Below are positions 2,252 to 60,002 of a stretch of 64,000 nucleotides of DNA, one piece after another. The notes under the pieces are model-generated. The model ran no database searches. It saw only the letters and a list, made by a program, of their open reading frames with translations, and was not told the origin of the DNA. Position numbers and translations under genes: made by a program. The stretch lies in assembly GCF_026967985.1 (NCBI RefSeq), contig NZ_JAPVBJ010000004.1, positions 248,001-312,000 of the forward strand, written 5' to 3'. The first letter of the stretch is position 1. Each line of letters starts with the position of its first letter. This DNA comes from Modestobacter sp. VKM Ac-2984 (GTDB lineage Bacteria; Actinomycetota; Actinomycetes; Mycobacteriales; Geodermatophilaceae).

Positions 2252-2253
2252 GA

Positions 2254-2307
2254 GGACCCCGTCCTCCTCACCCCTCGCAGGCTCGGGGCGAGCCTCTGGA
2301 CGGGGCC
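2254..2307 (+). terminator. Two-stem 3' element, copy 1 (after hydroxyacid dehydrogenase)
   Basis: The element starts 2 nt after the TGA stop. Outer stem: GG-A-CCCCGTCC pairs with GGACGGGG-CC, leaving a bulged A. Inner stem: CTCaCCCC pairs with GGGGcGAG with one A/C mismatch. The loop is TCGCAGGCTC. The architecture matches four other copies in the window. It lies between converging genes, so a termination or 3'-end role is likely, but no T-run follows. Confidence 0.75.
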
Positions 2308-31585: not shown

Positions 31586-31657
31586 TGGGGTATGGGGTAA
31601 TTGGCAGCCCGACGGTTTCTGGTTCCGTTAGTCTAGGTTCGAGTCCTGGTACCCCAG
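31586..31657 (+). tRNA. tRNA-Gln (CTG)
   Basis: 72-nt cloverleaf. The acceptor stem TGGGGTA pairs with TACCCCA, with discriminator G. The anticodon loop is TTCTGGT-like, with anticodon CTG, and the T arm has GGTTCGAGTCC. The CCA end is not encoded. TATTGT at 31545-31550 may be its -10 region. Confidence 0.93.
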
Positions 31658-31701
31658 CGAGGAGCACAGCTCCTCAGCACGACCGCACCACAGCACCACC
31701 T

Positions 31702-31774
31702 GGCCCCGTCGTCTAGCGGCCCAGGACGCCGCCCTCTCACGGCGGTAGCGAGGGTTCGAATCCCTTCGGGGCTA
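31702..31774 (+). tRNA. tRNA-Glu (CTC), copy 1
   Basis: 73-nt cloverleaf. Acceptor GGCCCCG pairs with CGGGGCT, discriminator A. The anticodon stem CCGCC/GGCGG encloses the loop CTCTCAC with anticodon CTC. T arm GGGTTCGAATCCC. No encoded CCA. Identical in sequence to the second copy 221 bp downstream. Confidence 0.95.
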
Positions 31775-31782
31775 CACCTGGC

Positions 31783-31814
31783 AGAGCCCCCGACCCACCC
31801 GGGTCGGGGGCTCT
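31783..31814 (+). terminator. Terminator after tRNA-Glu copy 1
   Basis: A perfect 14-bp stem beginning AGAGCCCCCGACCC around a 4-nt ACCC loop, 8 nt after the tRNA. Confidence 0.85.
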
Positions 31815-31922
31815 CGTCGTCTCTGCGCACTCCCCGGGCCGGGGCCTGGGCCCGGCGGCGCCACCGGGAGGGGTCTCGCGAGGGCGGTCGGACCGTCTGG
31901 CAGAATCGGCGCCGCAGCACCT

Positions 31923-31995
31923 GGCCCCGTCGTCTAGCGGCCCAGGACGCCGCCCTCTCACGGCGGTAGCGAGGGTTCGAATCCCTTCGGGGCTA
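31923..31995 (+). tRNA. tRNA-Glu (CTC), copy 2
   Basis: 73 nt, identical to the copy at 31702, including anticodon CTC and the absence of encoded CCA. It is part of the duplicated 122-bp unit. Confidence 0.95.
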
Positions 31996-35610: not shown

Positions 35611-36216
35611 ATGGACGCCTTCACCACGCACACCGGCACCGCCGCCCCGCTGCGGCGCAGCAACGTCGACACCGACCAGATCATCCCGGCCGAGTACCTC
35701 AAGCGGATCACCCGCACGGGGTTCGAGGACGGCCTGTTCGTCGCCTGGCGCACCAACGAGCCGGACTTCGTGCTCAACCAGCCGCAGTACGCCGGCGCCT
35801 CGATCCTGGTGGCCGGGCCGGACTTCGGCACCGGTTCCTCCCGGGAGCACGCGGTCTGGGCCCTGCTGGACGGCGGCTTCCGGGTGGTGATCAGCTCCCG
35901 GTTCGCCGACATCTTCAAGAACAACTCGACCAAGTCCGGGCTGCTCACCGTGCTGATGACCGAGCCGGACGTCGAGGCGCTGTGGGCCGCGATCGAGGCG
36001 GACCCGGCCACCCCGGTGACCGTGGACCTGCGGGCTGAGCAGGTCACCTACGGCTCGGTCACGGTGCCGTTCGAGACCGACGACTACACCCGCTGGCGGC
36101 TGCTCGAGGGGCTCGACGACGTCGGCCTCACCGAGCGGCACCTCGACGACATCACCACGTTCGAGGCGCAGCGCCCGTCCTGGCTGCCCCGCTCGCTGCC
36201 GGCGCTCCCCGCCTGA
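35611..36216 (+). CDS. leuD: 3-isopropylmalate dehydratase small subunit
   Basis: Swivel-domain partner of LeuC, 201 aa. Signatures: [35 protein letters not shown] and [15 protein letters not shown]. The ATG is 5 nt after the leuC stop, so the heterodimer is co-expressed. In mycobacteria hupB follows leuD; here a two-stem 3' element and the converging mutT1 follow directly. Confidence 0.97.
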
Positions 36217-36220
36217 CGAA

Positions 36221-36276
36221 GGACCCCCTCTCCCCCCACCCCTCGCAGGCTCGGGGCGGGCCCCTGAGAGGGGGCC
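36221..36276 (+). terminator. Two-stem 3' element, copy 2 (after leuD)
   Basis: Starts 4 nt after the leuD TGA. Outer stem GG-A-CCCCCTCTC with GAGAGGGGG-CC (bulged A). Inner stem CCCaCCCC with GGGGcGGG. Loop TCGCAGGCTC. 3' linker CCCCT. It separates converging leuD and mutT1. Confidence 0.8.
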
Positions 36277-44265: not shown

Positions 44266-45426
44266 GTGACCACTCCTGACCTGCCCGCCGACCTCGGCGA
44301 CGGCACCCGGCTGGTCCACGCCGGTGACGACCCGGCGGTGCCGGGCGCCCCCCTGCGTCCGTCGCCGGTCTTCGCCGCGCCGTACCACCTCGGGGACGAG
44401 GCCCCCGGCTGGCAGGGCGCCGACGGCTACGCCCGCCCGGACAACCCGACGCTGCGGGTGTTCGAACGTGCGGTCGGCGAGCTGGACGGCGGCGACTGCC
44501 TGTCCTTCGCCACGGGCATGGCGGCGATCAGCTCCGCCGTCCTGGCACTGGTCGGCCCCGGCGACCGGGTCGTGCTGCCGGCGGACGGCTACTACGCGAC
44601 CCGGGTGCTCGCCCGCGACGAGCTGGCCCGCTTCGGCGTGCAGGTGCAGCTCGTGCCCACCCTGGAGATCGAGGACGTCGCCGCCCGCGGGGACCTCGAC
44701 GGGGCGCGGCTGGTGCTGCTGGAGACCCCCAGCAACCCGCAGCTGGACGTCTGCGACATCGCCGCCGTCGCCCGGGCCACCCAGGCCTCCGGCGCGGTGC
44801 TGGTGGTGGACAACACCACGGCGAGCCCGATCGGGCAGCGCCCCCTGTCGCTGGGTGCCGACGTCACCGTGGGCTCGGACACCAAGGCCCTCACCGGGCA
44901 CAGCGACGTCCTGCTCGGGCACGTCAGCACGGCCCGCACCGAGCGCGGCCGGGAGCTGCACACCCGGATCGCCGCCTGGCGCAAGACCACCGGCAACACC
45001 CCCGGGGTGTTCGAGGCGTGGCTGGCGCACCGGTCGATGGGCACCCTGGACCTGCGGCTGGCCCGGCAGGCCGCCAACGCGGCCGCGCTGTCGGAGCTGC
45101 TGGCCGGGCACCCGGCGGTCAGCGGCGTCCGGTGGCCCTGGCGGCCGCAGGACCCGTCGTACGCGCTGGCGACCCGGCAGATGCTGCGCCCCAACGGCGT
45201 GGTCTCCGCCGAGCTCGCCGACGAGGCCGCCGTGGCCCGCCTGGTGCGCGGCAGCCGGCTGATCGCGGCCGCGACCAGCTTCGGTGGCATCCACACCACC
45301 GTGGACCGGCGGGCACAGTGGGGCGGGGACGCCGTCCCGGCCGGGTTCGTGCGGTTCTCCTGCGGCATCGAGGACACCGCCGACCTGGTGGCCGACCTGA
45401 CTTCCGCGCTCGGGACCCTCGGCTAG
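44266..45426 (+). CDS. Cystathionine gamma-lyase-type PLP enzyme
   Basis: Cys/Met-metabolism PLP-dependent enzyme, 386 aa. The active-site Lys is in VGSDTKALTGHSD. YARPDNPTLRVFERAVGELD and FATGMAAISS are fold-type I signatures. In actinobacteria the gene lying between gpsA and ddl is annotated as cystathionine gamma-lyase (cystathionine to cysteine, 2-ketobutyrate, ammonia); gamma-synthase cannot be excluded from motifs. GTG start with GGAGGA upstream. Confidence 0.85.
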   Translation: MTTPDLPADLGDGTRLVHAGDDPAVPGAPLRPSPVFAAPYHLGDEAPGWQGADGYARPDNPTLRVFERAVGELDGGDCLSFATGMAAISSAVLALVGPGDRVVLPADGYYATRVLARDELARFGVQVQLVPTLEIEDVAARGDLDGARLVLLETPSNPQLDVCDIAAVARATQASGAVLVVDNTTASPIGQRPLSLGADVTVGSDTKALTGHSDVLLGHVSTARTERGRELHTRIAAWRKTTGNTPGVFEAWLAHRSMGTLDLRLARQAANAAALSELLAGHPAVSGVRWPWRPQDPSYALATRQMLRPNGVVSAELADEAAVARLVRGSRLIAAATSFGGIHTTVDRRAQWGGDAVPAGFVRFSCGIEDTADLVADLTSALGTLG

Positions 45427-45436
45427 GGTCGGCGCG

Positions 45437-46600
45437 ATGACCGGGAAGGCGCGCAAGACCAGGGTCGCTGTCGTCTTCGGCGGGCGGAGCGCGGAACACG
45501 CGATCTCCTGCGTGTCGGCCGGGAGCGTGCTGGCCGCGCTGGACCCGGCGCGGTACGAGGTGGTGCCCGTCGGCATCACCCGGGACGGCCGCTGGCTGCT
45601 GCACGACGGCAAGGCCCTGGCCATCGACGACGGGCAGCTGCCCGAGGTCGTCGACGGCACCGCGGTGTCGCTCGTGGGCGACCCGGCCGGCCGGGGGCTG
45701 GCGGTGCTGGACGCCGGGCAGGCGATCGGCCGGCTCACCGAGGTCGACGTCGTCTTCCCCGTGTTGCACGGCGCCTACGGCGAGGACGGCACCATCCAGG
45801 GCCTGCTGGAGATGTCCGGGCTGCCCTACGTCGGCTCCGGGGTCTTCGCCAGCGCTGCGTCGATGGACAAGGAGTTCACCAAGAAGCTGCTCACCGCCGC
45901 CGGCATCCCGCAGGGTGACCACGTGGTGCTGCGCGACGCCTCCGGTGCGCTTTGCGCCGACCCGGCGCTGCTGGACGAGGCGGCCCGGGCCCGGCTCGGG
46001 CTGCCGGTCTTCGTCAAGCCCTCCCGCGCCGGCTCCAGCATCGGCATCACCAAGGTCACCGACTGGGCGCAGTTCCCGGCCGCCGTCGCGACGGCGGCCG
46101 CGGTCGACCCGAAGGTGGTGGTCGAGGCCGCGGTGCCCGGCCGGGAGATCGAGTGCGGGGTGCTCGCCGCGCCCGGCGCGGGGCTGCCCGACGTCAGCCT
46201 GCCGGCGGAGATCCGGCTGCGGCCGGGCACCGACTGGTACGACTTCGACGCCAAGTACCTCGAGGACGCCGTCGAGTTCGACGTGCCCGCCGACCTCACC
46301 CCCGAGCAGGTCCGGGCGGTGCAGGAGACGTCCCGCCGGGCCTACCTGGCCCTGGACTGTGCCGGCCTGGCCCGGGTCGACTTCTTCCTGACCACCGACC
46401 CGGCGACCGGTGCCGACCGGTGGGTCGTCAACGAGGTCAACACGATGCCCGGCTTCACCCCGATCTCGATGTTCCCGCGGATGTGGGCCGCCTCCGGGGT
46501 CAGCTACCCGGAGCTGGTCGACCGGCTGGTGGCCAGCGCCCTGGCCGGCCGGGTCCCGGACGGCAGCCTGCGGGACGGCGCCGTGCTGGGCGCCGGATGA
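45437..46600 (+). CDS. ddl: D-alanine-D-alanine ligase
   Basis: Joins two D-Ala for peptidoglycan synthesis, 387 aa. FGGRSAEHAISCVSA at the N-terminus, FVKPSRAGSSIGITKV, and the C-terminal NEVNTMPGFTPISMFPRMW are diagnostic ATP-grasp segments. TAGGGT ends 7 nt before the ATG, suggesting a leaderless mRNA in addition to read-through from upstream. The stop overlaps the following lipoprotein start. Confidence 0.97.
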   Translation: MTGKARKTRVAVVFGGRSAEHAISCVSAGSVLAALDPARYEVVPVGITRDGRWLLHDGKALAIDDGQLPEVVDGTAVSLVGDPAGRGLAVLDAGQAIGRLTEVDVVFPVLHGAYGEDGTIQGLLEMSGLPYVGSGVFASAASMDKEFTKKLLTAAGIPQGDHVVLRDASGALCADPALLDEAARARLGLPVFVKPSRAGSSIGITKVTDWAQFPAAVATAAAVDPKVVVEAAVPGREIECGVLAAPGAGLPDVSLPAEIRLRPGTDWYDFDAKYLEDAVEFDVPADLTPEQVRAVQETSRRAYLALDCAGLARVDFFLTTDPATGADRWVVNEVNTMPGFTPISMFPRMWAASGVSYPELVDRLVASALAGRVPDGSLRDGAVLGAG

Positions 46601-47244
46601 CCTCCCGGCTGCGGCGGGGCGCCGCGGCCGCAGTGCTGCTCGTCTCCCCGGTGTGCACCGGCTGCGCGTCCTCCGACGCCGAGCCGGTACCGGAGGCGGC
46701 GGCGTCGGTGGCGACCCCGACCAGCGCGGCCGAGCTGGAGGCGCTGCTGGTCGAGGAGGTGCCCTCCGGGCTGCCACGGGTGTCCGACGACGAGCTGGAC
46801 CCGCCGGCGGGGGAGAAGACGATCGACGACGTCGCCCGGTACGGGGAGGACGCGCAGCGCCAGCAGGAGGTGCTCGCCGACTACGGGTACACCCGCGGCT
46901 GGGAACGCTTCTGGCGGTCGGGCGAGGAGCTGACCAGCGTCTTCATCGACCAGTTCGCCGACCCGGCCGGCGCGGTCACCTACGCCGACGACCTCGCCCG
47001 CAACGACGCCGAGCACTACGGCGGCGACCTGGACCGCTCGCCCGGGGGGCTGCCGGACGACTGTGTGCTGCTCGCCCAGGACGACCCGGCGCCCGAGACC
47101 AAGATGTCCGGCCCGGCGGTCTTCGCGTGGTGCTCGGCCGGGGTCTTCACCGTCGCGGTCGCAGCCGTCGCCGATACCCCCGAGGCGGCGCGCCGCGAGC
47201 TGGAGGCGGTCACCACCGCTCAGCTCGACCGGCTCCCCGAGTGA
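46597..47244 (+). CDS. Lipoprotein of unknown function
   Basis: 215 aa. The signal ends in lipobox-like CTGC (Cys23), so the mature protein is lipid-anchored outside. An acidic, Ala-rich linker leads to a globular domain with YGYTRGWERFWRSGEE, then ITYADD-like AVTYADDLARNDAEHYGG and FAWCSAGVFTVAVAAVAD. The two later Cys may form a disulfide. No family recognised. The ATG overlaps the ddl stop, so it is expressed with ddl, and it is followed by a two-stem element on the opposite strand. Confidence 0.75.
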   Translation: MTSRLRRGAAAAVLLVSPVCTGCASSDAEPVPEAAASVATPTSAAELEALLVEEVPSGLPRVSDDELDPPAGEKTIDDVARYGEDAQRQQEVLADYGYTRGWERFWRSGEELTSVFIDQFADPAGAVTYADDLARNDAEHYGGDLDRSPGGLPDDCVLLAQDDPAPETKMSGPAVFAWCSAGVFTVAVAAVADTPEAARRELEAVTTAQLDRLPE

Positions 47245-47251
47245 TCGAGCT

Positions 47252-47307
47252 GGCCCCCGTGCAGGGTCCCGCCGCGAGCTTGCGAGTGGCGGGGGGCACG
47301 GGGGTCC
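47252..47307 (-). terminator. Two-stem 3' element, copy 3 (after the DUF3515 gene)
   Basis: Read on the reverse strand it starts 4 nt after the DUF3515 stop codon. Outer stem GG-A-CCCCCGTGC with GCACGGGGG-CC. Inner stem CCCGCCaC with GcGGCGGG. Loop TCGCAAGCTC, 3' linker ACCCT. It separates converging genes. Confidence 0.8.
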
Positions 47308-47311
47308 TTCC

Positions 47312-47929
47312 TCAGTCGGGCAGCGGGGCCGGGGTCGGGGCGGTGTAGGGGATCGCGCCGGCGATGAGCGGGCTCAACGCGGTGGGTGCGGCGCTGTCGG
47401 AGCTGGCCGGCACCCGCACCTGCACCGGGACGTTGCGGTCGACCGTCGTCCACACGTAGACGTCGGGGTCGGTGGTGTCGACGAACCACTCCACGCCGGA
47501 GACCAGCAGCGTCTGCGGGCCGCCGACGACGTAGCCGGCCGGCGGCTCGGCGCCGCAGATCAGCACGGTCGCCGGGTCGCCCCAGGCGTAGGCGAAGGGG
47601 CTGTCGGAGTCGACCCGGCGCGAGGTCTCCTCGGCCAGCTCGAGCGGCAGCTGGCTCATCAGCGCCGGGCAGGCGAGATCGGCCTCCGGGGTGATGTCCG
47701 GGGTGTCGACGGGCAGCGCCGGCAGCTCGGCGCGGGGCGCCGAGCTGGTGCCGGAGATCTCCGCGACCGCGTCCGGCTCCTCCTCGGCCTCGGTGCTGCG
47801 GCCGACCACGTTGACCAGCACGAGCAGCACGACGACCAGCGGCACCAGGACGGCGGTGGCGATCAGCGCCGCCCGCCGCAACGGGTCCGCGGGCGGCGGG
47901 GTGGCCTGGTCGGGCGCGGGGGTGCTCAA
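47312..47929 (-). CDS. DUF3515-family membrane protein
   Basis: 205 aa. Residues about 15-45 form one membrane helix; an acidic linker follows. The exported domain carries DUF3515 features ACPALMSQLPLELAEE, AYAWGDPATVLICGAEPP and VDTTDPDVYVWTTVDR. In Mycobacterium the equivalent (Rv2980) also lies next to ddl. The start is set at TTG 5 nt after the upstream Lrp-type gene's stop, since no ATG or GTG fits; this start is uncertain. Function unknown, probably cell-envelope. Confidence 0.75.
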   Translation of the reverse strand: MSTPAPDQATPPPADPLRRAALIATAVLVPLVVVLLVLVNVVGRSTEAEEEPDAVAEISGTSSAPRAELPALPVDTPDITPEADLACPALMSQLPLELAEETSRRVDSDSPFAYAWGDPATVLICGAEPPAGYVVGGPQTLLVSGVEWFVDTTDPDVYVWTTVDRNVPVQVRVPASSDSAAPTALSPLIAGAIPYTAPTPAPLPD

Positions 47930-47934
47930 GCGGC

Positions 47935-48168
47935 TCAGAGGTTGACGACGGGGCAGGTCAGCGTGCGGGTGATCCCGTCGACGGACTGCACCCGGGCCAC
48001 CACCAGCCGGCCGAGCTCGTCGACCGTGTTCGCCTCGGCGCGCACGATGACGTCGTAGGGGCCGGTGACGTCCTCGGCCTTGGTCACGCCGGCGATCTCG
48101 CTGATGCTCGCGGCGACCGCGGCTGCCTTGCCGACTTCGGTCTGGATCAAGATGTAGGCGTGGACCAC
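47935..48168 (-). CDS. Lrp/AsnC ligand-binding (RAM) domain protein
   Basis: Stand-alone RAM domain of 77 aa without a DNA-binding HTH, beginning VVHAYILIQTEVGKAAAV. Such proteins assemble into octamers that bind amino acids. GAGGAAGG upstream supports the GTG. Upstream of the DUF3515 gene by 5 nt, so they form a pair, divergent from thiL. Whether it sequesters small effectors or modulates full-length Lrp proteins is unknown. Confidence 0.85.
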   Translation of the reverse strand: MVHAYILIQTEVGKAAAVAASISEIAGVTKAEDVTGPYDVIVRAEANTVDELGRLVVARVQSVDGITRTLTCPVVNL

Positions 48169-48290
48169 GGGTTGACCTTCCTCGGGCAGTGCCTCGACGC
48201 CGGCTGCCACGTCGGCAGCGGCGGGGGGTGCGACCGGCCTGCCGAGCAGCGGGCCGATCGGCAACGTACCCCAGCCGGGGGGAGTGACCG

Positions 48291-49331
48291 ATGACTCGGC
48301 CCCGCCCCCTGGGCCTCCAGCCGGACCCGGACGACAGCGTCGGCGCGGTCGGGGAGTTCGCCGTCATCGGCCGGGTCGTGGCCCGCTCCGGCGCCGCCAC
48401 GGTGGCCGACGTGGGCCCCGGCGACGACGCCGCGGTGCTGCGCACCCCCGACGGCCGGGTGGTCGCCTGCACCGACGTCCTGGTGGAGGGGCGGCACTTC
48501 CGCCGCGACTGGTCCTCCGCCGAGGACGTCGGGCACAAGGCGGCCGCCGCGAACCTGGCCGACATCGCCGCCATGGGCGCCGTGCCGACCGCGTTGCTGG
48601 TCGGGCTCGCCTGCCCGGCGGGCACCCCGACCGCCTGGCTGGAGGACGTCGCGGTCGGGATGGCCGCCGAGTGCGCCCCCTTCGGTGCCGCCGTCGTCGG
48701 CGGGGACACCTCGGCCAGTGCGCCGGACTCCCAGGCGGTCGTGCTGTCGGTGACGGCGCTGGGCGACCTGGGTGGTCGGGCACCGGTGCTGCGCAGCGGC
48801 GCCCGTCCGGGGGACGTCGTCGCCGTCGCCGGGCGACTGGGCTGGTCGGCCTGCGGGCTGGCCGTGCTGCGCCGGGGCTTCTCCTCACCGATCGCCGCCG
48901 TGCGCGCGCACCGCCGGCCGACGCCGCCCTACGCCGCCGGCCCCGCCGCCGCGGACGCCGGGGCCACCGCGATGTGCGACACCAGCGACGGGCTGCTCGC
49001 CGACGCCGGTCACCTGGCCGCCGACAGCGGGGTGCTGATCGACCTGGACCGGGCCGCGCTCCAGGAGGCGTTCGTCGACCCCGCCGGGCCGCTGCCGCAG
49101 GTCGCGGCGGCGCTGGGTGGGGACCCGATGGCGTGGGTGCTGACCGGCGGTGAGGACCATGCGCTGGTGGCGACCTTCCCGGCCGGCACCGACCTGCCGC
49201 CCGGCTGGACGGTGGTCGGCGCGGTGCACGCCAGCGGTGGCGACGGGCCCGGCGTGCAGGTGGACGGGGTCCCCGCGGCCCGGGTGGCCGAGGAGCTGGG
49301 GGAGGGTGCGGGGCATGTCCACTTCGGCTGA
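48291..49331 (+). CDS. thiL: Thiamine-monophosphate kinase
   Basis: Phosphorylates thiamine phosphate to the active cofactor used by IlvB and the decarboxylase in this window. 346 aa. GPGDDAAVLRTPDGRVVACTD, HKAAAANLADIAAMGA and the late CDTSDGLLADAGHLA are ThiL signatures. GGGGGGAG precedes the ATG. Its end overlaps the GNAT gene by 17 bp. In Mycobacterium ung lies beside thiL; it is absent here. Confidence 0.95.
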   Translation: MTRPRPLGLQPDPDDSVGAVGEFAVIGRVVARSGAATVADVGPGDDAAVLRTPDGRVVACTDVLVEGRHFRRDWSSAEDVGHKAAAANLADIAAMGAVPTALLVGLACPAGTPTAWLEDVAVGMAAECAPFGAAVVGGDTSASAPDSQAVVLSVTALGDLGGRAPVLRSGARPGDVVAVAGRLGWSACGLAVLRRGFSSPIAAVRAHRRPTPPYAAGPAAADAGATAMCDTSDGLLADAGHLAADSGVLIDLDRAALQEAFVDPAGPLPQVAAALGGDPMAWVLTGGEDHALVATFPAGTDLPPGWTVVGAVHASGGDGPGVQVDGVPAARVAEELGEGAGHVHFG

Positions 49332-49848
49332 GGTCCCGGGGGTCGCGTCCGGGCCGGCGCAGCTGCGCGTCGTCGGCTACGCGGACCCGGTGGCGCAGCA
49401 CCTGATCGAGCGGGTGCAGCAGGAGTACGTCGTCCGGTACGGCGGCCGGGACGACGCGGTGGTCGACCCGGGCGAGTTCTCCCCGCCGCTGGGGCTGTTC
49501 CTGGTCGCCGAGGTCGACGGGGTACCGGCCGGCTGCGGTGGCTGGCGGGCACACGGGCACGGGGTGGCCGAGCTCAAGCGGATGTACGTGGAGCCGGGCT
49601 TCCGGCGCCGGGGGTTGGCCGCGCAGGTGCTGGCCGAGCTGGAGCGCACCGCGGCCGCGGCCGGGGCCGTGCGGCTGCTGCTGAACTCCGGTGACCGGCA
49701 GCCCGAGGCCCTGGCGCTCTACGACCGGGCGGGCTACACCCCGGTGGCCGGCTACGGCATCTACGCGGACTCGCCGGAGGCGGTCTTCCTCGGCAAGGAG
49801 CTCGTCGCCGACCGGCCGGTGGCGGAGGAGGACGCATGGGCGTCGTGA
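49315..49848 (+). CDS. GNAT-family acetyltransferase
   Basis: 177 aa. The acetyl-CoA binding motif A reads VEPGFRRRGLAAQVLAELE, preceded by AELKRMYV and followed by ALALYDRAGYTPV. Substrate unknown. GGGGGAGGG precedes the ATG, which lies inside the end of thiL; the 3' end in turn overlaps the next gene by 13 bp, so the three are co-translated. Confidence 0.88.
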   Translation: MSTSAEVPGVASGPAQLRVVGYADPVAQHLIERVQQEYVVRYGGRDDAVVDPGEFSPPLGLFLVAEVDGVPAGCGGWRAHGHGVAELKRMYVEPGFRRRGLAAQVLAELERTAAAAGAVRLLLNSGDRQPEALALYDRAGYTPVAGYGIYADSPEAVFLGKELVADRPVAEEDAWAS

Positions 49849-50462
49849 CGTTCTCGGCGTCCTTCGGGGCCGGCGGCGCCGAGATCGCCCCGGCCGTGGC
49901 CGAACGGCTCGGCCTGCCCTTCCACGACCGGGTCATCCCGGCGCAGGTGGCCGGTCGGCTCGGGGTCCCGGTGGCCGAGGCCGAGGCCAACGACGAGACC
50001 ATCGCCCGCGGGCTGTGGCGGCTGGTCAGCTCGCTGGGCACGATGCCCGACCCGGTGGGCGGGGTGCTGCCCACCGGTTCGCTGCCCGACGAGCGGGCCT
50101 ACCGGCAGCAGACCGAGTGGGTGGTGACCGAGATCGCGGCGGGGTCCGGGGGCGTCGTGCTCGGGCGCGCGGGGGCGATGGTGCTGCGCGACCGGCCCGA
50201 CGTCCTGCACGTCCGGCTGGACGGGCCGCCGGAGCGGCGGCTGGCGGCCGCGGTCGAACACCTCGGCGGGCCCGTCGAGGAGGTGCGCCGGGAGCAGGAG
50301 GCCGCCGACGCCGCACGGACGGCCTACGTGCGGCACTTCTACCGCTGCGACCCGGCGGAGGCCCGGCACTACCACCTCGTCGTCGACAGCACCGCGCTGC
50401 CGTACGCCACCGTTGTGGACCTGGTGGTCGCCGCGGCCCGCGCGCGGGGGATCGGCCACTGA
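49836..50462 (+). CDS. Cytidylate kinase-like family protein
   Basis: 208 aa, P-loop NTPase of the cytidylate-kinase-like group. The N-terminus VVTFSASFGAGGAEIA resembles a divergent nucleotide-binding loop; FHDRVIPAQVAGRLG and GVVLGRAGAMVLRD are typical of the group. The classic GxxGxGK is not met, so kinase activity is unproved. Last gene of the thiL unit, followed by a strong terminator. Confidence 0.78.
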   Translation: MGVVTFSASFGAGGAEIAPAVAERLGLPFHDRVIPAQVAGRLGVPVAEAEANDETIARGLWRLVSSLGTMPDPVGGVLPTGSLPDERAYRQQTEWVVTEIAAGSGGVVLGRAGAMVLRDRPDVLHVRLDGPPERRLAAAVEHLGGPVEEVRREQEAADAARTAYVRHFYRCDPAEARHYHLVVDSTALPYATVVDLVVAAARARGIGH

Positions 50463-50478
50463 GCCGGTCGGGAACGCC

Positions 50479-50515
50479 GAAGACCCCGGAGGTCCTCAGG
50501 ACCTCCGGGGTCTTC
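50479..50515. terminator. Terminator after the cytidylate-kinase-like gene
   Basis: An 18-bp inverted repeat beginning GAAGACCCCGGAGG with a 1-nt centre, 16 nt after the stop codon. The inner pairs must open to form a loop. Confidence 0.8.
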
Positions 50516-50540
50516 TCAGCTCAGCACTGCCAGGCTTTTC

Positions 50541-50594
50541 GGCCCCCTGCAGGGTCCCGCGGTGAGCTTGCGAACCGTGGGGGGTACGGGGTCC
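50541..50594 (-). terminator. Two-stem 3' element, copy 4 (after rpmB)
   Basis: On the reverse strand it starts 4 nt after the rpmB stop. The outer stem GG-A-CCCCGTAC with GCAGGGGG-CC is weaker than in the other copies (two mismatches). The inner stem CCCaCGGT with ACCGcGGG is fully compensated. Loop TCGCAAGCTC, linker ACCCT. Confidence 0.75.
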
Positions 50595-50598
50595 TTTC

Positions 50599-50790
50599 TC
50601 AGGCCCGAGCGACCTTGCCCGCGCGGATGCACGAGGTGCAGACGTTCATGCGCTGGCGGCCGCCACCGGTCAGCGCGGCGCGGACGGACTGGATGTTCGG
50701 GTTCCAACGGCGCGGCGTGCGGCGGTGCGAGTGCGACACCGACATGCCGAAACCGGGGCCCTTGCCACACACATCGCACACGGCAGCCAC
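50599..50790 (-). CDS. rpmB: 50S ribosomal protein L28
   Basis: 63 aa, normal length. Begins AAVCDVCGKGPGFGMSVSHS and keeps both CxxC pairs (CDVC and CTSC), so it is the zinc-binding form. RRTPRRWNPNIQ is conserved. GGGAG precedes the GTG. Divergent from the DAK2 gene, as in other actinobacteria. A zinc-free paralogue may exist elsewhere. Confidence 0.97.
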   Translation of the reverse strand: MAAVCDVCGKGPGFGMSVSHSHRRTPRRWNPNIQSVRAALTGGGRQRMNVCTSCIRAGKVARA

Positions 50791-51024
50791 GGTCGATCAC
50801 TCCCAGAGAATTGGTCCAGCTGAAGTCAGGTCCTGAAGTCAGGTCGCAGTGCGCGGCGGAGACCCGGGCGGGAGCCCAGGGCATGGTCCTGCCACGCACA
50901 ACTGGAGACCACTGTAGCCGGTGCCCGCGAGCCGTGTCGGACCGCCCCGTCCCTCGGGGCCGGGCGGGGGCGGGAAGGTCGTGGGCACCCGGTCGTGTCG
51001 GTGGCCCCCGGTACCCTGCCGCAC

Positions 51025-52626
51025 GTGCTGGAGGCGCTGGACGAGGCCGCGGTCGGCCGATGGAGCTCCGCCGTCGTCGACACGCTGACGCAGGCGCGTG
51101 GCCGGCTCGACGAGCTGAACGTCTTCCCCGTCCCCGACGGTGACACCGGCACCAACCTGCTGATGACCGCCCAGGCCGCGCACGCGGCGCTGACCGGCGC
51201 CGACGGCACCGAGTCCGCCTGGGACGTGCTGGCCCGTGGCGCCGTGCTCGGCGCGCGCGGCAACTCCGGGGCGATCCTGGCCCAGCTGCTGCGCGGGCTC
51301 GCGGACGGGCTGGCCGACGTCGAGCACGTCCACGGGCCGGTGCTCGCCGAGGCGCTGGCCTCGGCCGCCGGCACCGCCTACGCCGCGGTCGCCGATCCGG
51401 AGGAGGGCACCTTCCTCACCGTGGCCCGGGCCGGCGCCGATGCGGCCACCGCCGCCGTCGCCGCCGGGCAGGCCGGTCTGGCCGACGTCGTCCGGGCAGC
51501 CGCGGAGGGTGCGCTCACCGCCCTGCGGGCGACCACCGGCCAGCTGGCCGCGCTGCGCGACGCCGGCGTGGTCGACGCCGGGGGAGCCGGCTGGTGCCTG
51601 GTGCTCGATGCGCTGGTCGGCACGGTCACCGGCACGACGCCGGTCCGCGCGCCGCTGGACGGGCGGCCCGCCCGGCCCCGCCGGTCACCGTGGCCGGTGC
51701 CGGCTGCGCCCGCCCCCGGGCCGGGCAGCGAGGTGCAGTTCCTGCTCGCCGACTCCGACGAGGCCGCCGTCTCCCGGCTGCAGGCGCGGCTGGCCGAGCT
51801 GGGCGACTGCCTGGTCGTCGTCGGCGTCGACACCCCGGGCGGCCGGGAGTGGAACGTCCACGTCCACGTGAGCGACGTCGGCGCCGCGGTAGAGGCGGGG
51901 ATCGAGGCGGGGCGGCCGCACCGGATCTCGGTGACCCCGCTGGCCCCGGTGCGGGCGCCGGCCGCCGCGGCGGGCGTGCGCGCCGTGCTCGCGCTGGCCT
52001 GCTCCGCCGGGCTCGCCGAGCTCTTCGGAGCCGAGGGCGTCACCGTGCTGACCGCACCGGTCGACGCGGTCGACGAGGACGCCGTCCTGCAGGCGGTGCT
52101 GGACACCGGGGCCGAGCAGGTCGTCGTGCTGCCCAACCACTGGGAGGTCACCGCGGTGACCGCCTGCGCCGCCGACCGGGCGCGCGAGGAGGGGCGGGAC
52201 GTCGTGGTCGTCCCGACCCGGTCGGCCGTGCAGGGCCTGGCGGCGCTCGCCGTCGCCGACCCGGCCCGCCGCTTCGGGGACGACGTCATCGCCATGGCCG
52301 AGGCCGCGGCCGCGACCCGGTGGGCGGAGGTGACCGTCGCCGAGCAGGAGGCGCTCACCTCGGCCGGCCGCTGCGCCCCCGGGGACGTGCTGGGCAGCGC
52401 GGAGGGCGACGTCGTGGTCATCGGCGCCGACCAGGTCACCGTCGCCCGCGACCTGCTGGACCGGCTGCTGTCGGCCGGCGGGGAGATGGCCACCGTCGTC
52501 GTGGGGGAGGAGCCCGCCCTCGGCGACGCGGTCTGCGCCCACCTCTCCGCGGTGCACCCGACGGTCGAGGTGGTCCGCTACGCCGGCGGCGCCGGGGCCG
52601 TGCCCCTGCTGATCGGGGTCGAGTAG
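51025..52626 (+). CDS. DAK2-domain protein (FakA/DhaL-like)
   Basis: 533 aa. The N-terminal DAK2 domain carries ELNVFPVPDGDTGTNLLMT and GARGNSGAILAQLLRG, the nucleotide-binding segments of the dihydroxyacetone/fatty-acid kinase family. The C-terminal part (about 290-533) matches the FakA-type partner-binding region, including VVVLPNHWEVT-like sequence. Probably a fatty-acid kinase subunit; no DegV/FakB partner is in this window. The GTG start is set by TACCCT ending 7 nt upstream. Overlaps recG. Confidence 0.85.
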   Translation: MLEALDEAAVGRWSSAVVDTLTQARGRLDELNVFPVPDGDTGTNLLMTAQAAHAALTGADGTESAWDVLARGAVLGARGNSGAILAQLLRGLADGLADVEHVHGPVLAEALASAAGTAYAAVADPEEGTFLTVARAGADAATAAVAAGQAGLADVVRAAAEGALTALRATTGQLAALRDAGVVDAGGAGWCLVLDALVGTVTGTTPVRAPLDGRPARPRRSPWPVPAAPAPGPGSEVQFLLADSDEAAVSRLQARLAELGDCLVVVGVDTPGGREWNVHVHVSDVGAAVEAGIEAGRPHRISVTPLAPVRAPAAAAGVRAVLALACSAGLAELFGAEGVTVLTAPVDAVDEDAVLQAVLDTGAEQVVVLPNHWEVTAVTACAADRAREEGRDVVVVPTRSAVQGLAALAVADPARRFGDDVIAMAEAAAATRWAEVTVAEQEALTSAGRCAPGDVLGSAEGDVVVIGADQVTVARDLLDRLLSAGGEMATVVVGEEPALGDAVCAHLSAVHPTVEVVRYAGGAGAVPLLIGVE

Positions 52627-54827
52627 TGGCGATCTCCATGGACACGCCGCTGACCCGGGTCCTCGGCCCGAAGACGGCGAAGGTGATGGCCGAGCAGCTG
52701 GCGCTGCACACGGTGCGCGACCTGCTGCGGCACTACCCCCGCCGTTACGCCCGGCGCGGGGAGATGACCCGGCTGGACGGCCTGGAGGTCGGCGACCGCG
52801 TGACCGTGCTCGCGCAGGTGAAGAGCGTCAGCACCCGGCGGATGCAGCAGCGCCGCGGCACGCTCACCGAGGTGACCGTCGGCGACGGCGCGGGCAGCAT
52901 GCGGCTGGTCTTCTTCAACAACCGGCACGCGCACCTCGACGTCGGCGAGTGGGGGCTGTTCGCCGGCACCGTGGGTCTGTGGCGGGGGGACAAGCAGTTC
53001 AGCCACCCCGACTGCCACATCATCACCGGGGACGACGACGACTGGGCTCGGGCGCTGGTGCCCCTCTACCCGGCGAGCAAGGACGTCTCCAGCTGGGTCA
53101 TCCAGAAGTCGGTCAAGCTCCTGCTGGACGACGCCCACTCCCTGGAGCAGCTGCTCGACGACCCGATCCCGGCGACGGTCCGGGAGCGGCACGGCCTGGT
53201 CGACCTGGCCACCGCACTCCGGCAGAAGCACCGGCCGGAGAACCAGGAGCAGGTCGACTCCGCCGACGAGCGGCTCAAGTGGGACGAGGCGCTGGTGCTG
53301 CAGGCGACGCTGGCCGCCCGTCGCCGGGCCGCCGCGCTGGAGCCCGGCATCGCCCGACCGGGGCGCCGCGGCGGGCTGCTGGACGCGGTCGACGCGGCCC
53401 TGCCGTTCTCCCTGACCGACGGCCAGCGCGAGGTCGGCGAGGAGCTGGCCGCCGAGCTGGCCCGCGAGCAGCCGATGAACCGGCTGCTGCAGGGCGAGGT
53501 CGGCTCCGGGAAGACGGTCGTCGCCCTGCGGGCGATGGCCCAGGTCGTCGACGCCGGCGGGCAGGCCGCGCTGCTCGCGCCCACCGAGGTGCTCGCCGCG
53601 CAGCACGCCCGCAGCCTGGCCGCGATCCTGGGTCCGCTGGGGCGCGCGGGCGAGCTCGACGGCGACCCGGAGGGCACCCGGGTGACACTGCTCACCGGCT
53701 CGCAGAAGGCCGCCGTCCGCCGCGAGGCGCGGGCTGCGGTCGCCGACGGCAGCGCGGGCATCGTGGTGGGCACCCACGCGCTGCTGCAGGAGGGCGTGGA
53801 GTTCGCCGACCTCGGGCTGGTCGTCGTCGACGAGCAACACCGGTTCGGGGTGGAGCAGCGGGACGCGCTGCGCGCCAAGGGCACCCGGCCGCCGCATGTG
53901 CTGGTCATGACGGCCACCCCGATCCCGCGCACCGTGGCGATGACCGTCTACGGCGACCTGGAGACCTCCACGCTGCGCCAGCTGCCGGCCGGCCGTGGCG
54001 GGGTGTCCAGCTCGGTCGTGCCGGTGGGGGAGAAGCCGGCCTGGCTGGACCGTGCCTGGGCGCGGGTGCGCGAGGAGGTGGCGGCCGGCCGACAAATCTA
54101 CGTCGTCTGCCCCCGGATCGGCGACCTCGAGGACGGCGGCAAGGGCGACGACGGGCCGGACGACGCGGACGGCGCACCGCCGCCGGAGGAGAAGGGCGGC
54201 ACCAGCGACAAGCGCCCGCCGCTCGCGGTCCTCGATGTCGCCGAGGGGCTGCGTGCCGGTCCGCTGTCGGCGCTGCGGGTGGAGGTGCTGCACGGCCGGA
54301 TGCCGCCGGAGGAGAAGGAGGCGCGGATGCGGGCCTTCGCCGCCGCGGAGGTCGACGTCCTGGTCGCCACCACCGTCGTCGAGGTGGGGGTCGACGTGCC
54401 CAACGCCACGGTGATGGTGGTGATGGACGCCGACCGGTTCGGCGTCAGCCAGCTGCACCAGCTGCGCGGCCGGGTGGCCCGCGGGAAGCACGCCGGGCTG
54501 TGCCTGCTGGTCACCGAGGCGCCCAGCACCTCCCCGACCGGGCAGCGGCTGGCCGCGGTCGCCGCGACCACCGACGGCTTCGCCCTCGCCCGGCTCGACC
54601 TGGAGACCCGCCGGGAGGGCGACGTGCTGGGCGCGGCGCAGTCCGGCCGCCGGTCGAACGTGAAGCTGCTGTCCCTGCTGGACGACGAGGCACTGATCGC
54701 CGAGGCCCGGGTCGAGGCCACGACGCTGGTCGAGCAGGGCCGCGGGCTCGCCGACCACCCTGAGCTGGCCGCCGCCGTCGCCGCCCTGGCGCTGGACGAG
54801 CGCGCCACCTACCTGGAGAAGGCATGA
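52626..54827 (+). CDS. recG: ATP-dependent DNA helicase RecG
   Basis: Branch-migrating helicase that rescues stalled forks, 733 aa. The wedge/OB domain (about 50-165) is followed by helicase motif I GEVGSGKTVVALRAMAQ near 290, motif II VVDEQHRFG near 400, motif III MTATPIPRT, and the C-terminal HQLRGRVARGKHAG. An acidic, disordered insert of about 35 residues (near 500-535) precedes motif IV, as often in actinobacteria. GTG overlaps the DAK2 stop; an in-frame ATG at 52638 is an alternative. Confidence 0.96.
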   Translation: MAISMDTPLTRVLGPKTAKVMAEQLALHTVRDLLRHYPRRYARRGEMTRLDGLEVGDRVTVLAQVKSVSTRRMQQRRGTLTEVTVGDGAGSMRLVFFNNRHAHLDVGEWGLFAGTVGLWRGDKQFSHPDCHIITGDDDDWARALVPLYPASKDVSSWVIQKSVKLLLDDAHSLEQLLDDPIPATVRERHGLVDLATALRQKHRPENQEQVDSADERLKWDEALVLQATLAARRRAAALEPGIARPGRRGGLLDAVDAALPFSLTDGQREVGEELAAELAREQPMNRLLQGEVGSGKTVVALRAMAQVVDAGGQAALLAPTEVLAAQHARSLAAILGPLGRAGELDGDPEGTRVTLLTGSQKAAVRREARAAVADGSAGIVVGTHALLQEGVEFADLGLVVVDEQHRFGVEQRDALRAKGTRPPHVLVMTATPIPRTVAMTVYGDLETSTLRQLPAGRGGVSSSVVPVGEKPAWLDRAWARVREEVAAGRQIYVVCPRIGDLEDGGKGDDGPDDADGAPPPEEKGGTSDKRPPLAVLDVAEGLRAGPLSALRVEVLHGRMPPEEKEARMRAFAAAEVDVLVATTVVEVGVDVPNATVMVVMDADRFGVSQLHQLRGRVARGKHAGLCLLVTEAPSTSPTGQRLAAVAATTDGFALARLDLETRREGDVLGAAQSGRRSNVKLLSLLDDEALIAEARVEATTLVEQGRGLADHPELAAAVAALALDERATYLEKA

Positions 54828-54898
54828 CGCAGCAGTCCTGGCTCAGCCCGTCCGAGGCCGGCCCCGGAACGGAGCCGACCGGCGTGAGCCCCCGATGA
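54824..54898 (+). CDS. 24-aa frame joining recG and rsmD
   Basis: ATG frame starting MTQQSWLSP and ending GVSPR. It overlaps the recG stop at its start (ATGA) and the rsmD start at its end (ATGA). Such double overlap would let ribosomes pass from recG to rsmD. It may be a coupling frame with no functional product. Confidence 0.4.
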   Translation: MTQQSWLSPSEAGPGTEPTGVSPR

Positions 54899-55449
54899 CC
54901 CGGCTGATCGCCGGCGTGGCCGGCGGCCGTCGGCTCAAGGTGCCCCGGGCCGGGGTGCGCCCCACCGGTGACCGGGCCAGGGAGGGGCTGTTCAACTCCC
55001 TCGGCTCGCTGCTGGACCTCGACGGCGCCCGCGTGCTGGACCTCTACGCCGGCTCCGGGGCGCTCGGGCTGGAGGCGCTGTCCCGCGGCGCGGCCGAGGC
55101 GGTCTTCGTGGAGTCCGGTGCCGGCGTGCTGCCGGTGCTGCGCGGCAACATCGAGACCGTGGGCCTGCGCGGGGCGCGCGTGGTGCAGGGCAGCGTCCAG
55201 ACCGTGGTGGCCGCGCCGGCGCCGGCGGAGTTCGACCTGGTGTTCGCCGACCCGCCCTATGCCGCCCCGGTCGAGGAGGTGCTCGGCGTGCTCGAGGCGC
55301 TGGCCGGCAACGGCTGGCTGGCCCCGGACGCCGTCGTGGTGGTGGAGCGGTCCAGCCGCGAGAAGACCTTCCCGTGGCCGACACCCTTCGACGGACTGCG
55401 TGATCGGCGGTACGGAGAGGCGGTGCTCCGGTACGGTCGCTTGTCGTGA
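54895..55449 (+). CDS. rsmD: 16S rRNA (guanine(966)-N2)-methyltransferase
   Basis: 184 aa. Methylates G966 of 16S rRNA. RLIAGVAGGRRLKVP at the N-terminus, RPTGDRAREGLFNSL, SAM-binding VLDLYAGSGALGLEAL and the catalytic DPPY are all present. Paired with coaD as in most bacteria. ATG overlaps a 24-aa frame. Confidence 0.96.
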   Translation: MTRLIAGVAGGRRLKVPRAGVRPTGDRAREGLFNSLGSLLDLDGARVLDLYAGSGALGLEALSRGAAEAVFVESGAGVLPVLRGNIETVGLRGARVVQGSVQTVVAAPAPAEFDLVFADPPYAAPVEEVLGVLEALAGNGWLAPDAVVVVERSSREKTFPWPTPFDGLRDRRYGEAVLRYGRLS

Positions 55450-55931
55450 GGCGAGCGGTCTGTCCCGGTTCGTTCGACCCGGTCACCAACGGCCATGTCG
55501 ATGTGATCGCGCGCGCCGCCGGCCTGTACGACGAGCTGGTCGTCGCGGTGCTGGTCAACCCCGGCAAGGCCGGCCTCTTCGACGTCGACGAGCGGATGGC
55601 GCTGCTGCGTGAGGCTGTCGTCGACCTGCCCAACGTCACGGTCGACAGCTTCGAAGGGCTGCTCGTCGACTACTGCCTGGCCCAGCAGATCCCGGTCATC
55701 GTCAAGGGCCTGCGGGCGGTCGGCGACTTCGAGTACGAGCTGCAGATGGCCCAGATGAACCGGGAGCTCGCCGCCGTCGAGACCCTGTTCGTGCCCACCG
55801 CACCCCAGGTGGGGCACCTGTCCTCCAGCCTGGTCAAGCAGATCGCCCGCTTCGGTGGCGACGTGTCGTCCCTGGTGCCCAAGGCGGTCAACGACCGACT
55901 GGTGGCCCAGTCGAAGGGGAGGCAGTCGTGA
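55446..55931 (+). CDS. coaD: Phosphopantetheine adenylyltransferase
   Basis: Fourth step of coenzyme A synthesis, 161 aa. VCPGSFDPVTNGHVDVIARA contains the nucleotidyltransferase TNGH motif; LVKQIARFGGDVSSLVP holds the second signature. The GTG overlaps the rsmD stop, but TACGGT ending 8 nt before it could also give an independent leaderless transcript. Confidence 0.97.
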   Translation: MRRAVCPGSFDPVTNGHVDVIARAAGLYDELVVAVLVNPGKAGLFDVDERMALLREAVVDLPNVTVDSFEGLLVDYCLAQQIPVIVKGLRAVGDFEYELQMAQMNRELAAVETLFVPTAPQVGHLSSSLVKQIARFGGDVSSLVPKAVNDRLVAQSKGRQS

Positions 55932-56617
55932 CGGAGGTCGTGTACCGGCTCTACGAGACCGTCGACGAGCTGACGACGGTGATCGAGAACGCCCGCAGCG
56001 TGCCGATGTCCAGCTCTTGCATGGTGCCGCGCGACCACCTGCTCGACCTGCTCGACGACCTCCGGGAGAACCTGCCCGAGGAGGTCCAGCAGGCCGGGGC
56101 GATCGTCGAGCAGCGCGCCGAGATCCTGCAGCAGGCCCAGGCGGAGGCCGAGCGGCTCACCGGCCGCACCCGCAGCGAGAGCGAGCAGGTGGTCGTCGCC
56201 GCCCGCCGGCAGCGGGAGGAGCTGGTCGGCACCGCCCGCCGCCAGCGGGACGAGATCCTCACCGAGGCGCAGGCCCAGGCCGACGAGCTGATCGCCGGCG
56301 CGGAGGAGGAGGCCGAGCAGCTGCTCGTCGAGGCCCGCCGGCTGCGGGACCAGCTGGTGCGGGACGGGCAGGAGCAGCGGGCCGAGCTGATCGCCGCGGG
56401 TCAGGTCGAGCACGAGCGGCTGCTCACCGAGACCGAGGTCTACCGGACCGCCGTCGACCGGGCCGACGAGCTCGGCGCCCAGACGGCGGCCGAGGTGGCC
56501 CGGATGCGGGCCGAGGTGGACGACTACGTCGACAGCCGGCTGGCCGACTTCGGGAACACCCTGGCGCACATGGCACGTTCGGTGGAGAAGGCCCGGGACA
56601 ACCTCCGCAGCCCGTGA
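55928..56617 (+). CDS. sepIVA: SepIVA-like coiled-coil division protein
   Basis: 229 aa, almost entirely coiled coil rich in Ala, Glu, Gln and Arg. The N-terminus VVYRLYETVDELTTVIENAR is followed by a short DivIVA-like core and heptads to about residue 210. Gene order coaD-sepIVA-DUF177-rpmF matches mycobacteria, where the protein (Rv2927c) localises septal and intracellular membrane domains. The GTG overlaps the coaD stop (GTGA). Identity rests on synteny and architecture. Confidence 0.75.
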   Translation: MTEVVYRLYETVDELTTVIENARSVPMSSSCMVPRDHLLDLLDDLRENLPEEVQQAGAIVEQRAEILQQAQAEAERLTGRTRSESEQVVVAARRQREELVGTARRQRDEILTEAQAQADELIAGAEEEAEQLLVEARRLRDQLVRDGQEQRAELIAAGQVEHERLLTETEVYRTAVDRADELGAQTAAEVARMRAEVDDYVDSRLADFGNTLAHMARSVEKARDNLRSP

Positions 56618-56761
56618 CCGGTCCGCCCCACCCCTGACCGGGAGGTGTGGACGGAGGGATCGGGTAGGCTGGACGTCTGTCCGGCTGCTGCCGTCCTGCG
56701 TGCTCGTCCGGCGCGGGCCTCCCGCCGGGCACCCCCACCTTCGACGACGACGAGTACCGAC

Positions 56762-57487
56762 ATGCCTGCTTCCTCCGCGCGCTCCACGGGGCCGTCCTCC
56801 GGCGCTGCGTCCACCGACGCCCGGCGCCCGGTCGGCGACCCCGTCGACAAGCCGCTCCCCACGCCGGCCGAGAAGGCCGCCGAGAAGGCCTGGAAGATCG
56901 ACCTCCGGGAACTCGGCCGCCGCGCCGGCTCGATGCGTGAGTGGGAGAAGACCCTCCCGGCCCTGGCCGGCTGGGGCGTGGAGATGATCGGCGTCCCCGA
57001 GGGTGCCCCGGTCCAGCTCCACCTCCGCCTGGAGTCGGTGATGGAGGGCGTCCTGGTCACCGGCCAGGTCGAGCTCCCGGTCACCGGCCAGTGCGCCCGC
57101 TGCCTCGACCCGGTCGAGGACACCGTCGAACTCGACGTCCAGGAGCTCTACGCCTACGCGGGCAGCACCACCGAGGCCACCAGCGGCGAGGACGAGGTGC
57201 GCCGCATCGACGGCGACCGGCTCGACCTGGCGCCGCTGGTCCGTGACACCGTCGTCCTGACCCTCCCGCTGTCGCCCACCTGCCAGCCCGACTGTGCCGG
57301 CCTGTGCGTCGACTGCGGCGAGCGGCTCGACGACCTCCCTGCCGACCACTCCCACGAGGCGCTCGACCCCCGGTGGGCCGGGCTCGCCGCCCGTTTCACC
57401 GAGACGGCCGACAGTGCCGATCCGACCGACAGCGCGGCCGGACCCCAGCCGGGGTCCACCAACCGCACCAACCCAGAGGAGAACTGA
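56762..57487 (+). CDS. DUF177/YceD-family protein
   Basis: 241 aa. YceD proteins accompany rpmF in most bacteria and are linked to 23S rRNA maturation in plants and E. coli. Conserved C-terminal Cys pairs are seen ([22 protein letters not shown]), possibly binding a metal. The N-terminal ~45 residues are Ser/Pro-rich. A TAGGCT box at 56664-56669 predicts transcription start near 56677 and thus an 85-nt 5' UTR. The ATG at 56762 has no strong ribosome-binding site, so the start is uncertain. Confidence 0.85.
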
Positions 57488-57489
57488 CC

Positions 57490-57669
57490 GTGGCCGTTCC
57501 GAAGCGGAAGATGTCCCGGAGCAACACCCGCGCCCGCCGGTCGCAGTGGAAGGCCACGGCCCCCACCCTGGCGCCCTGCCCCAACGCGGCCTGCCGTGAG
57601 CTCAAGCCGCCGCACCAGGCGTGCCCCACCTGCGGCCAGCACGACGGCCGCCAGGTCCTCTCGGTCTGA
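57490..57669 (+). CDS. rpmF: 50S ribosomal protein L32
   Basis: 59 aa. [20 protein letters not shown] is the conserved N-terminus. Cysteines in CPNAAC and CPTC form the zinc site. GTG start 2 nt after the DUF177 stop, preceded by GAGGAGAA. Confidence 0.97.
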
Positions 57670-57685
57670 CCTGCGCGGCTCGAGC

Positions 57686-58504
57686 GTGGCGCAGCCGACC
57701 GGCACACCGGCGTCCTCGGTGCTGAGCTCCCACCCCGGGGAGCCCAGGGCCGAGGACGCCGGTGGTCGTGTGCCCGCCGGCGGTGCCGCACACGCCGAAC
57801 GGGCGGCCCGCTGGCTGCTCGGGGCACTGGACCTCGAGCTGCCCGGCGACCTGCTCGGGCTGGCGCTGACCCACCGGTCCTACGCCTACGAGAACGGTGG
57901 GCTGCCCACCAACGAGCGCCTGGAGTTCCTCGGCGACTCGGTGCTCGGGCTGGTGGTCACCGACGAGCTCTACCGCAGCCACCCCGACCTGCCCGAGGGT
58001 CAGCTGGCGAAGCTGCGCGCCTCGGTGGTCAACATGACCTCGCTGGCCCGCGTCTCCCGGTCCCTGGGCGAGGGGGGCATCGGCCCCCACCTGCTGCTGG
58101 GCCGGGGTGAGCAGGCCACCGGCGGCCGAGAGAAGGACTCGATCCTCGCCGACGCGCTCGAGGCGCTGATCGGTGCGGTCCACCTCGGGCTGGGGCTGGA
58201 GACCGCCTCGGCGGTCGTGCACCGGCTCTTCGACCCGTTGCTGGCCGAGTCGGCCACCCGTGGGGCCGGCCTGGACTGGAAGACCAGCCTCCAGGAGCTC
58301 GGCGCCTCCCTGGGCCTGGGCGCACCGGTCTACGAGGTCGAGGACGACGGCCCCGACCACGCCAAGACCTTCACCGCCGCCGTGCTGCTGGCCGGCGAGG
58401 TGCGCGGTTCGGGTGCCGGTCGGACGAAGAAGGCCGCCGAGCAGGAGGCCGCCGAGACGGCCTGGCACGCCCTGTCGGCCGACGGCGGACCGACGCAGGA
58501 CTGA
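57686..58504 (+). CDS. rnc: Ribonuclease III
   Basis: Double-strand-specific endonuclease for rRNA and mRNA processing, 272 aa. Signature [16 protein letters not shown]; the second acidic site lies in [13 protein letters not shown]. The dsRNA-binding domain ([22 protein letters not shown], ending [12 protein letters not shown]) is complete. The N-terminal ~45 residues before [11 protein letters not shown] are extra and low complexity. Starts considered: GTG 57686 (chosen) and GTG 57719. Confidence 0.95.
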
Positions 58505-58507
58505 GTC

Positions 58508-59998: not shown

Positions 59999-60002
59999 AG
60001 AA

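Follow-up and report, generated by a model that had tools for sequence, protein, structure and literature searches.

A dispersed two-stem palindromic repeat behind stop codons in Modestobacter, probably a REP-like mobile DNA element

The window, as we call the whole stretch of 64,000 nt of Modestobacter DNA that was analysed, carries five copies of a structured element of approximately 58 nt. All five were found at the coordinates and on the strands at which a sequence-only reading had placed them, and every copy lies on the sense strand of the preceding gene, behind an in-frame sense TGA at a spacing of 2-4 nt. Four of the five stand between converging genes, as that reading had also stated. 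The copies, two parts of copy 2 and a neighbouring hairpin are the following:

2252..2307, plus strand: element copy 1, 8-bp outer stem class, 62.8 bits
36219..36276, plus strand: element copy 2, 9-bp outer stem class, 86.4 bits
36221..36222, plus strand: GG of the outermost GG/CC pairs of copy 2 (partner 36275-36276), with the bulged A next, taken from the alignment
36243..36252, plus strand: apical loop TCGCARGCTC of copy 2, an exact loop match, taken from the alignment
47252..47309, minus strand: element copy 3, behind the TGA of a DUF3515 gene, 83.8 bits
50479..50515, minus strand: separate perfect hairpin downstream of copy 4, behind rpmB; a similar hairpin is present in loci L136-L140
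50541..50596, minus strand: element copy 4, outer stem imperfect, behind the TGA of rpmB, 63.7 bits
60001..60057, plus strand: element copy 5, behind the TGA of a small gene (59807-59998), 79.4 bits

Copy 1 is located directly behind the TGA of a 2-hydroxyacid dehydrogenase gene, and the stop of the converging gene is 1 nt further. Copy 2 follows the TGA of a leuD-like gene (35611-36216; Aconitase_C), and the rpmB gene upstream of copy 4 occupies 50599-50790 (Ribosomal_L28). The small gene before copy 5 has no Pfam match and lies upstream of smc in a codirectional context. When the whole window was searched with the Rfam covariance models at the gathering score, three tRNAs and no element were matched, and around copy 2, the one region searched at this threshold, there was no match up to an E-value of 1; a known Rfam family was therefore rejected as the identity of the element. 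The window also holds a row of three tRNA genes (31586-31995), two of them with equal scores.

The element is built as AAGG-A-outer stem (8-9 bp)-inner hairpin-CCCT-outer stem-GGCC, and the inner hairpin has a common A/C mismatch and a TCGCNNGCTC loop. Some of the uniformity first ascribed to the family does not extend to all of its members. The loop described as fixed, TCGCARGCTC, is exact in all five window copies but in just 49 of the 112 copies found in the genome, of which 88 fit TCGCNNGCTC; the A/C mismatch of the inner stem is found in 84 of 126 aligned rows; and the outer stem at 50541-50594 is imperfect. The outermost pairs (helix 1) are paired in 97.6% of the cells of the 126-row alignment. 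Folding energies of the five copies (z of -1.6, -0.9, -2.7, +0.3 and -3.5, in DNA of 75% GC) are by themselves unremarkable in three, so the case rests on the family rather than on stability. Behind copies at different sites (L222, L203, L227, L207, L200 and others) a 3' flank like GYTCCAGCACGTCAC recurs, and the unit may accordingly be longer than the 58-nt element.

Compensation in the stems is real and the covariation is strong. Among 16 ungapped copies, double changes were observed at 10 of the 18 pairs, and the covariation score of 0.326 was reached by none of 500 shuffles and compares with at most 0.111 in the slid controls, which bears out the earlier statement that partner strands change together. 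In 126 distinct rows, obtained from 128 matches from 97 chosen sources with orthologues included and with the alignment fitted to the structure, 16 of the 18 pairs have double changes, and there are few intermediates.

Within the window the exact loop occurs at five places, every one of them a listed copy, and the loop with one mismatch is not enriched (9 found, 15.2 expected). Genome-wide, 56 exact matches were found, compared with five for the control pattern read backwards; 49 of the 56 lie within an element and the other seven (L010, L012, L019, L025, L026, L028, L038) were dropped. A covariance model was built from the 16 of these 49 copies that are 58 nt long and ungapped. With this model the genome was found to contain at least 112 copies (E up to 0.1), a lower bound, as 150 of 9,884 candidates were scored; in genome G007, 148 of the 150 scored candidates are copies. 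The search of related genomes, a check put forward together with the sequence-only reading, did find further copies in relatives: 32 of 59 genomes have matches, namely all 23 of the genus Modestobacter (own genome included), 9 of the 12 other genomes of the Geodermatophilaceae and none of the 24 genomes from other families of the order. A class-wide draw of 296 genomes gave three with matches, the own genome and two of one other family (here f18), and a phylum-wide draw of 396 genomes searched with a broader model gave two, the own genome and one of f18; in both draws 14-18 candidates were scored per genome, and diverged relatives can be missed at this depth. In the plasmid collection the best E-value was 0.09, and no place spanned 80% of the query. 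The f18 elements agree in the loop and have a comparable inner hairpin, but their outer stems differ:

L240, L241, L243, L245, L247, L249 and L251 (genomes G335 and G060): related two-stem elements of family f18

Some of these elements stand directly behind CTAG or CTAA stops, and one locus has tandem units. An in-frame C-stop lies within 5 nt upstream at three of the seven loci (L240, L243, L247), and at L251 there is a GTAA 6 nt upstream of the element.

The position behind stop codons extends well beyond the window. Altogether 81 of the 112 own copies begin beside a coding-like sense stop (from -2 to +9 nt, by a codon-score test), 53 of them at a spacing of 2, and the same is true for 57 of the 69 copies compared in four genomes. 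The usual start context is CTGANG followed by AAGG, and bases -6 to -1 over the 112 copies are mostly C, T, G, A, mixed and G. At spacing 2, the C before TGA (position -6) is found in 52 of 53 copies, against a background of 817 of the 1,215 called TGA stops in the four regions. Elements occupy 52 of 1,348 called gene stops in the four genomes, none of the 25,758 stop words in coding interiors and 14 of the 3,750 remaining stop words between genes, among them some stops of missed small genes. The 52 copies at called gene stops are distributed over 21 convergent and 31 codirectional gaps. The remaining 31 own copies fail the stop test: two lie in an antisense frame, and 29 form a mixed class that includes the copies at rpmB and at another small gene missed by the test, the second units of tandem copies, and seven copies behind TAGNNN where no gene was found to end:

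C1:384096, C20:115232, C17:88165, C16:141720, C1:356246, C12:568772 and C1:354793 (own genome): copies behind TAGNNN

Four of these seven precede a start codon by 16-28 nt and may coincide with promoter -10 regions. Targeting of a replication strand was considered and rejected; the 148 copies of G007 divide into 87 on the leading and 61 on the lagging strand, a count that assumes the terminus opposite dnaA and is uncorrected for gene-strand bias.

Copies are dispersed over the genome, and relatives mostly do not share them at the same sites. Of 107 own copies, 25 match a second copy at another locus of the genome with at least 95% identity, and 63 with at least 90%; copy 2 and the copy at C1:768443 are identical at 57 of 58 positions. 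Synteny was examined by comparing the own contig (C16) with approximately 380 kb from each of three relatives. The four genomes gave 90 model matches at E up to 0.01, of which the 69 with at least 40 bits were used and 21 dropped, and 204 of 207 possible site comparisons could be made, with mean flank identities of 91.6-95.4%. At an identity threshold of 0.8, 67 comparisons found the same element, 22 a different one, five an inverted one and 110 none, and in 54 of these 110 there are at most 12 nt in place. This threshold is lenient, as 384 of 1140 non-orthologous pairs reach it, and the inverted class depends on it. At 0.9, reached by 13 of 1140 such pairs, that class disappears, and 29 comparisons found the same element, 51 a different one and 124 none. 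Since real orthologues can drop below 0.9, the true number of the same elements lies between 29 and 67. The 69 copies make up 39 sites, 18 of which are occupied in a single genome.

The window copies illustrate this turnover. In the gap of copy 1 all three relatives have other elements (identity 0.68-0.82), and at the syntenic place of copy 2 none of them has an element, two having short hairpins there. The site of copy 3 holds the same element in G018 (0.93), one on the opposite strand in G001 (0.90 when reversed) and none in G008. That of copy 4 is empty in G018 and has a short hairpin in G001 and a different element in G008, and copy 5 is shared with G008 (0.93) and absent from G018 and G001. 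At the sites of copies 1 and 3 (sites 29 and 30; 2252-2307 and 47252-47309) the element of one relative lies on the opposite strand, behind the stop of the other gene. At rpmB the element is present at 6 of 18 loci of the genus (L136-L147, L149-L154). Many empty sites retain AGG...GGCC remnants resembling those of deletion, so some of the absences are losses and deletion is common; short outer-stem hairpins are often left where the inner part is gone. At one site two genomes have a copy and are 57 nt longer than the two without it; in G008 this copy lies inside a called antisense gene. No clear target-site duplication, a criterion for MITEs, was seen at the sites compared among the four genomes.

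The sequence-only reading regarded the compensatory changes as the hallmark of selection on RNA structure. RNA helices tolerate G-U but not A-C, and DNA helices treat both alike. In the 126 rows, the stems without the closing pair contain 28 A-C and 18 G-U cells, and with it 28 and 32, counts that leave out the pair of column 30 (40 A-C cells) and include decayed copies. As a control, 37 distinct tRNAs of the genus were counted over their acceptor, anticodon and T stems, which have 5 A-C and 22 G-U (Fisher p 0.0006; 0.017 when the closing pair is included). The tolerance of G-U and avoidance of A-C that characterise structured RNA are thus not seen in the stems; the closing pair of the outer stem alone, with 14 G-U and no A-C, fits them. 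As A-C is as common as G-U, the double changes are not a hallmark of RNA selection, and a hairpin recognised as DNA, or correction of one arm against the other by template switching, suits them better.

The strongest of the alternatives is an RNA element that acts in cis at the 3' end of mRNAs, serving as a stability cap, a Rho-terminated end or a protein-binding hairpin, repeatedly regenerated and selected for its structure. Sense orientation with a spacing of mostly 0-4 nt behind stops speaks for it, as do the strong double changes and the frequent persistence of short outer-stem hairpins after the inner part has gone, and the tight sense-strand position would fit selection for a 3' function as well. 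We consider it unlikely: A-C is as frequent as G-U, in contrast to tRNAs, a relative has no element in 110-124 of the 204 comparisons, some copies are found in 5' regions or within coding frames in antisense orientation, and the element is limited to few lineages in the draws searched. Of the undescribed RNA 3' element originally proposed, the structured family and its sense-strand place behind stops have stood, and the literature, as far as titles and abstract openings show, contains no description of the Modestobacter repeat; as a primary reading, RNA is weakened by the turnover, the dispersed copies of at least 95% identity, the A-C and G-U counts and the lack of a U-tract.

An intrinsic terminator is very improbable, whether it acts forward or in reverse, where the opposite strand has the hairpin followed by TCCTTCNTCA and could stop antisense transcripts that arrive from converging genes. 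The forward version was rejected because no copy out of 112 has a U-tract (at least four T within the 8 nt that follow). A GC-rich hairpin does fill convergent gaps, and of the two terminator-like patterns found in 45000-62000 one is copy 4 read in reverse, yet this is the chance level (1.2 expected, sd 1.2), and 31 of the 52 copies at called stops lie in codirectional gaps, which counts against a reverse terminator. Separate perfect hairpins also persist downstream. The one at 50479..50515, found behind rpmB in element-occupied and empty loci alike, is probably the terminator of rpmB itself and distinct from the element. A further perfect hairpin of at least 9 bp is present in 10 of 35 occupied gaps (counted where at least 30 nt follow the copy; 17 of 52 were too short) and in 132 of 760 unoccupied ones; the element therefore does not stand in for them.

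Least credible of all is the view of the copies as ordinary palindromes at hotspots, their arms corrected against each other by template switching with neither mobility nor selection, which would explain the double changes with few intermediates and the symmetry of A-C and G-U but not the A/C mismatch in 84 of 126 rows, the TCGCNNGCTC loop in 88 of 112 copies, near-identical copies at other loci or the precise location behind CTGA; such switching could well operate in addition to mobility.

We therefore regard the family as probably REP-like, a palindromic DNA repeat of approximately 58 nt that is mobile but non-autonomous, a reading that brings together the dispersal, the turnover, the position and the DNA-like pairing observed here. 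Such a repeat would spread by being copied, its hairpin read as DNA, and would insert in sense orientation immediately behind a C-plus-stop word (CTGA NG, followed by AAGG), and a copy would soon be deleted or replaced by another. The folded single strand might be recognised by a protein or a replication-coupled process, and selection against damage to coding or promoter DNA may contribute to the post-stop placement. As a by-product, a 3'-UTR hairpin approximately 5 nt behind the stop may hold up ribosomes during termination or protect the end of the mRNA, and a secondary RNA or 3'-UTR effect of the element is possible.

Y1_Tnp (PF01797) is encoded in none of 20 genomes of the genus, in 2 of 14 genomes of other families and in 5 of 14 named controls; on these grounds a RAYT-driven REP was rejected. 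A composite mobile unit between outward-facing copy pairs (L009, L013) was likewise rejected, the middles matching only in repeats and short weak stretches, and no autonomous partner was found between these pairs. At L009 (994-1569) a single gene, which looks broken in this genome, seems to contain one of the two outward-facing copies and to have the other at its end.

Integron attC sites are also imperfect hairpins of conserved structure behind stop codons, with 7-bp GTT/AAC core boxes and an arrangement in cassette arrays. The Modestobacter consensus lacks these boxes and its copies are scattered over contigs, which sets them apart from attC. Closer to the element are the GTAG/CGTC REPs. As described in a REP survey, these are short palindromes that occur in many copies and have an unpaired tag and alternative complementary stems, located mostly between unidirectional or convergent genes near gene 3' ends; GTAG REP ends often supply the stop codon, some copies lie inside genes, G-T pairs are frequent in GTAG REP stems, and the CGTC class lacks a linked transposase gene (PMC3733652). 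The Modestobacter repeat is likewise a palindrome of high copy number that lies mostly outside genes, near their 3' ends. It differs in its usual context, (CTGANG)AAGG instead of GTAG/CGTC, with a few copies having GTAG or CTAG before AAGG, and in that the Y1 (RAYT) transposase associated with the GTAG class was not found in the 20 genomes of the genus searched for it. It is also longer, with two stacked stems in approximately 58 nt compared with 20-40 nt in those REPs, and has no excess of G-T pairs (PMC3733652). Because known REPs also lie near gene 3' ends, supply stops and occur in genes, the family is placed with them and not as a new RNA class, and this placement as a REP variant holds although tag and transposase differ. 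The main text of the survey does not mention actinobacteria, Geodermatophilaceae or Frankia. Rickettsia palindromic elements, treated in its section 15, are palindromic insertions that can lie in coding frames (PMC3733652); compared by description only, they differ in phylum and in place, the Modestobacter copies being mostly post-stop. In E. coli, REPs located no more than 15 nt from a stop codon are said to stall ribosomes (cited in PMC12306157), and the Modestobacter hairpins close behind stops resemble them in position and in a possible effect on translation. According to that paper, 446 of 4,072 predicted E. coli REPs are this close to a stop, compared with 81 of 112 near a stop, mostly at fixed spacing, in Modestobacter; predicted REPs are listed there for three Actinomycetota, and Modestobacter, Blastococcus and Geodermatophilaceae are not mentioned in its main text (PMC12306157).

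More tentatively, the elements of Modestobacter and f18 could together represent a new class of mobile DNA hairpins, marked by the A/C mismatch and the TCGCNNGCTC loop and spread over two or more actinobacterial families, that insert at stop codons (C-TGA, C-TAG, C-TAA) through a non-Y1 enzyme able to read the folded strand; we hold this wider proposal to be possible, but rather doubtful. Strong covariation in multi-copy hairpins is by itself no proof of RNA function, and the count of G-U against A-C pairs provides a cheap test of RNA versus DNA pairing. For the Geodermatophilaceae, the repeat adds a REP-like family with another tag, a two-stem shape, near-exact placement at stops and no Y1 transposase found, and the question of what copies such palindromes becomes testable. 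Through their post-stop position the elements look like RNA signals, yet they evolve like mobile DNA.
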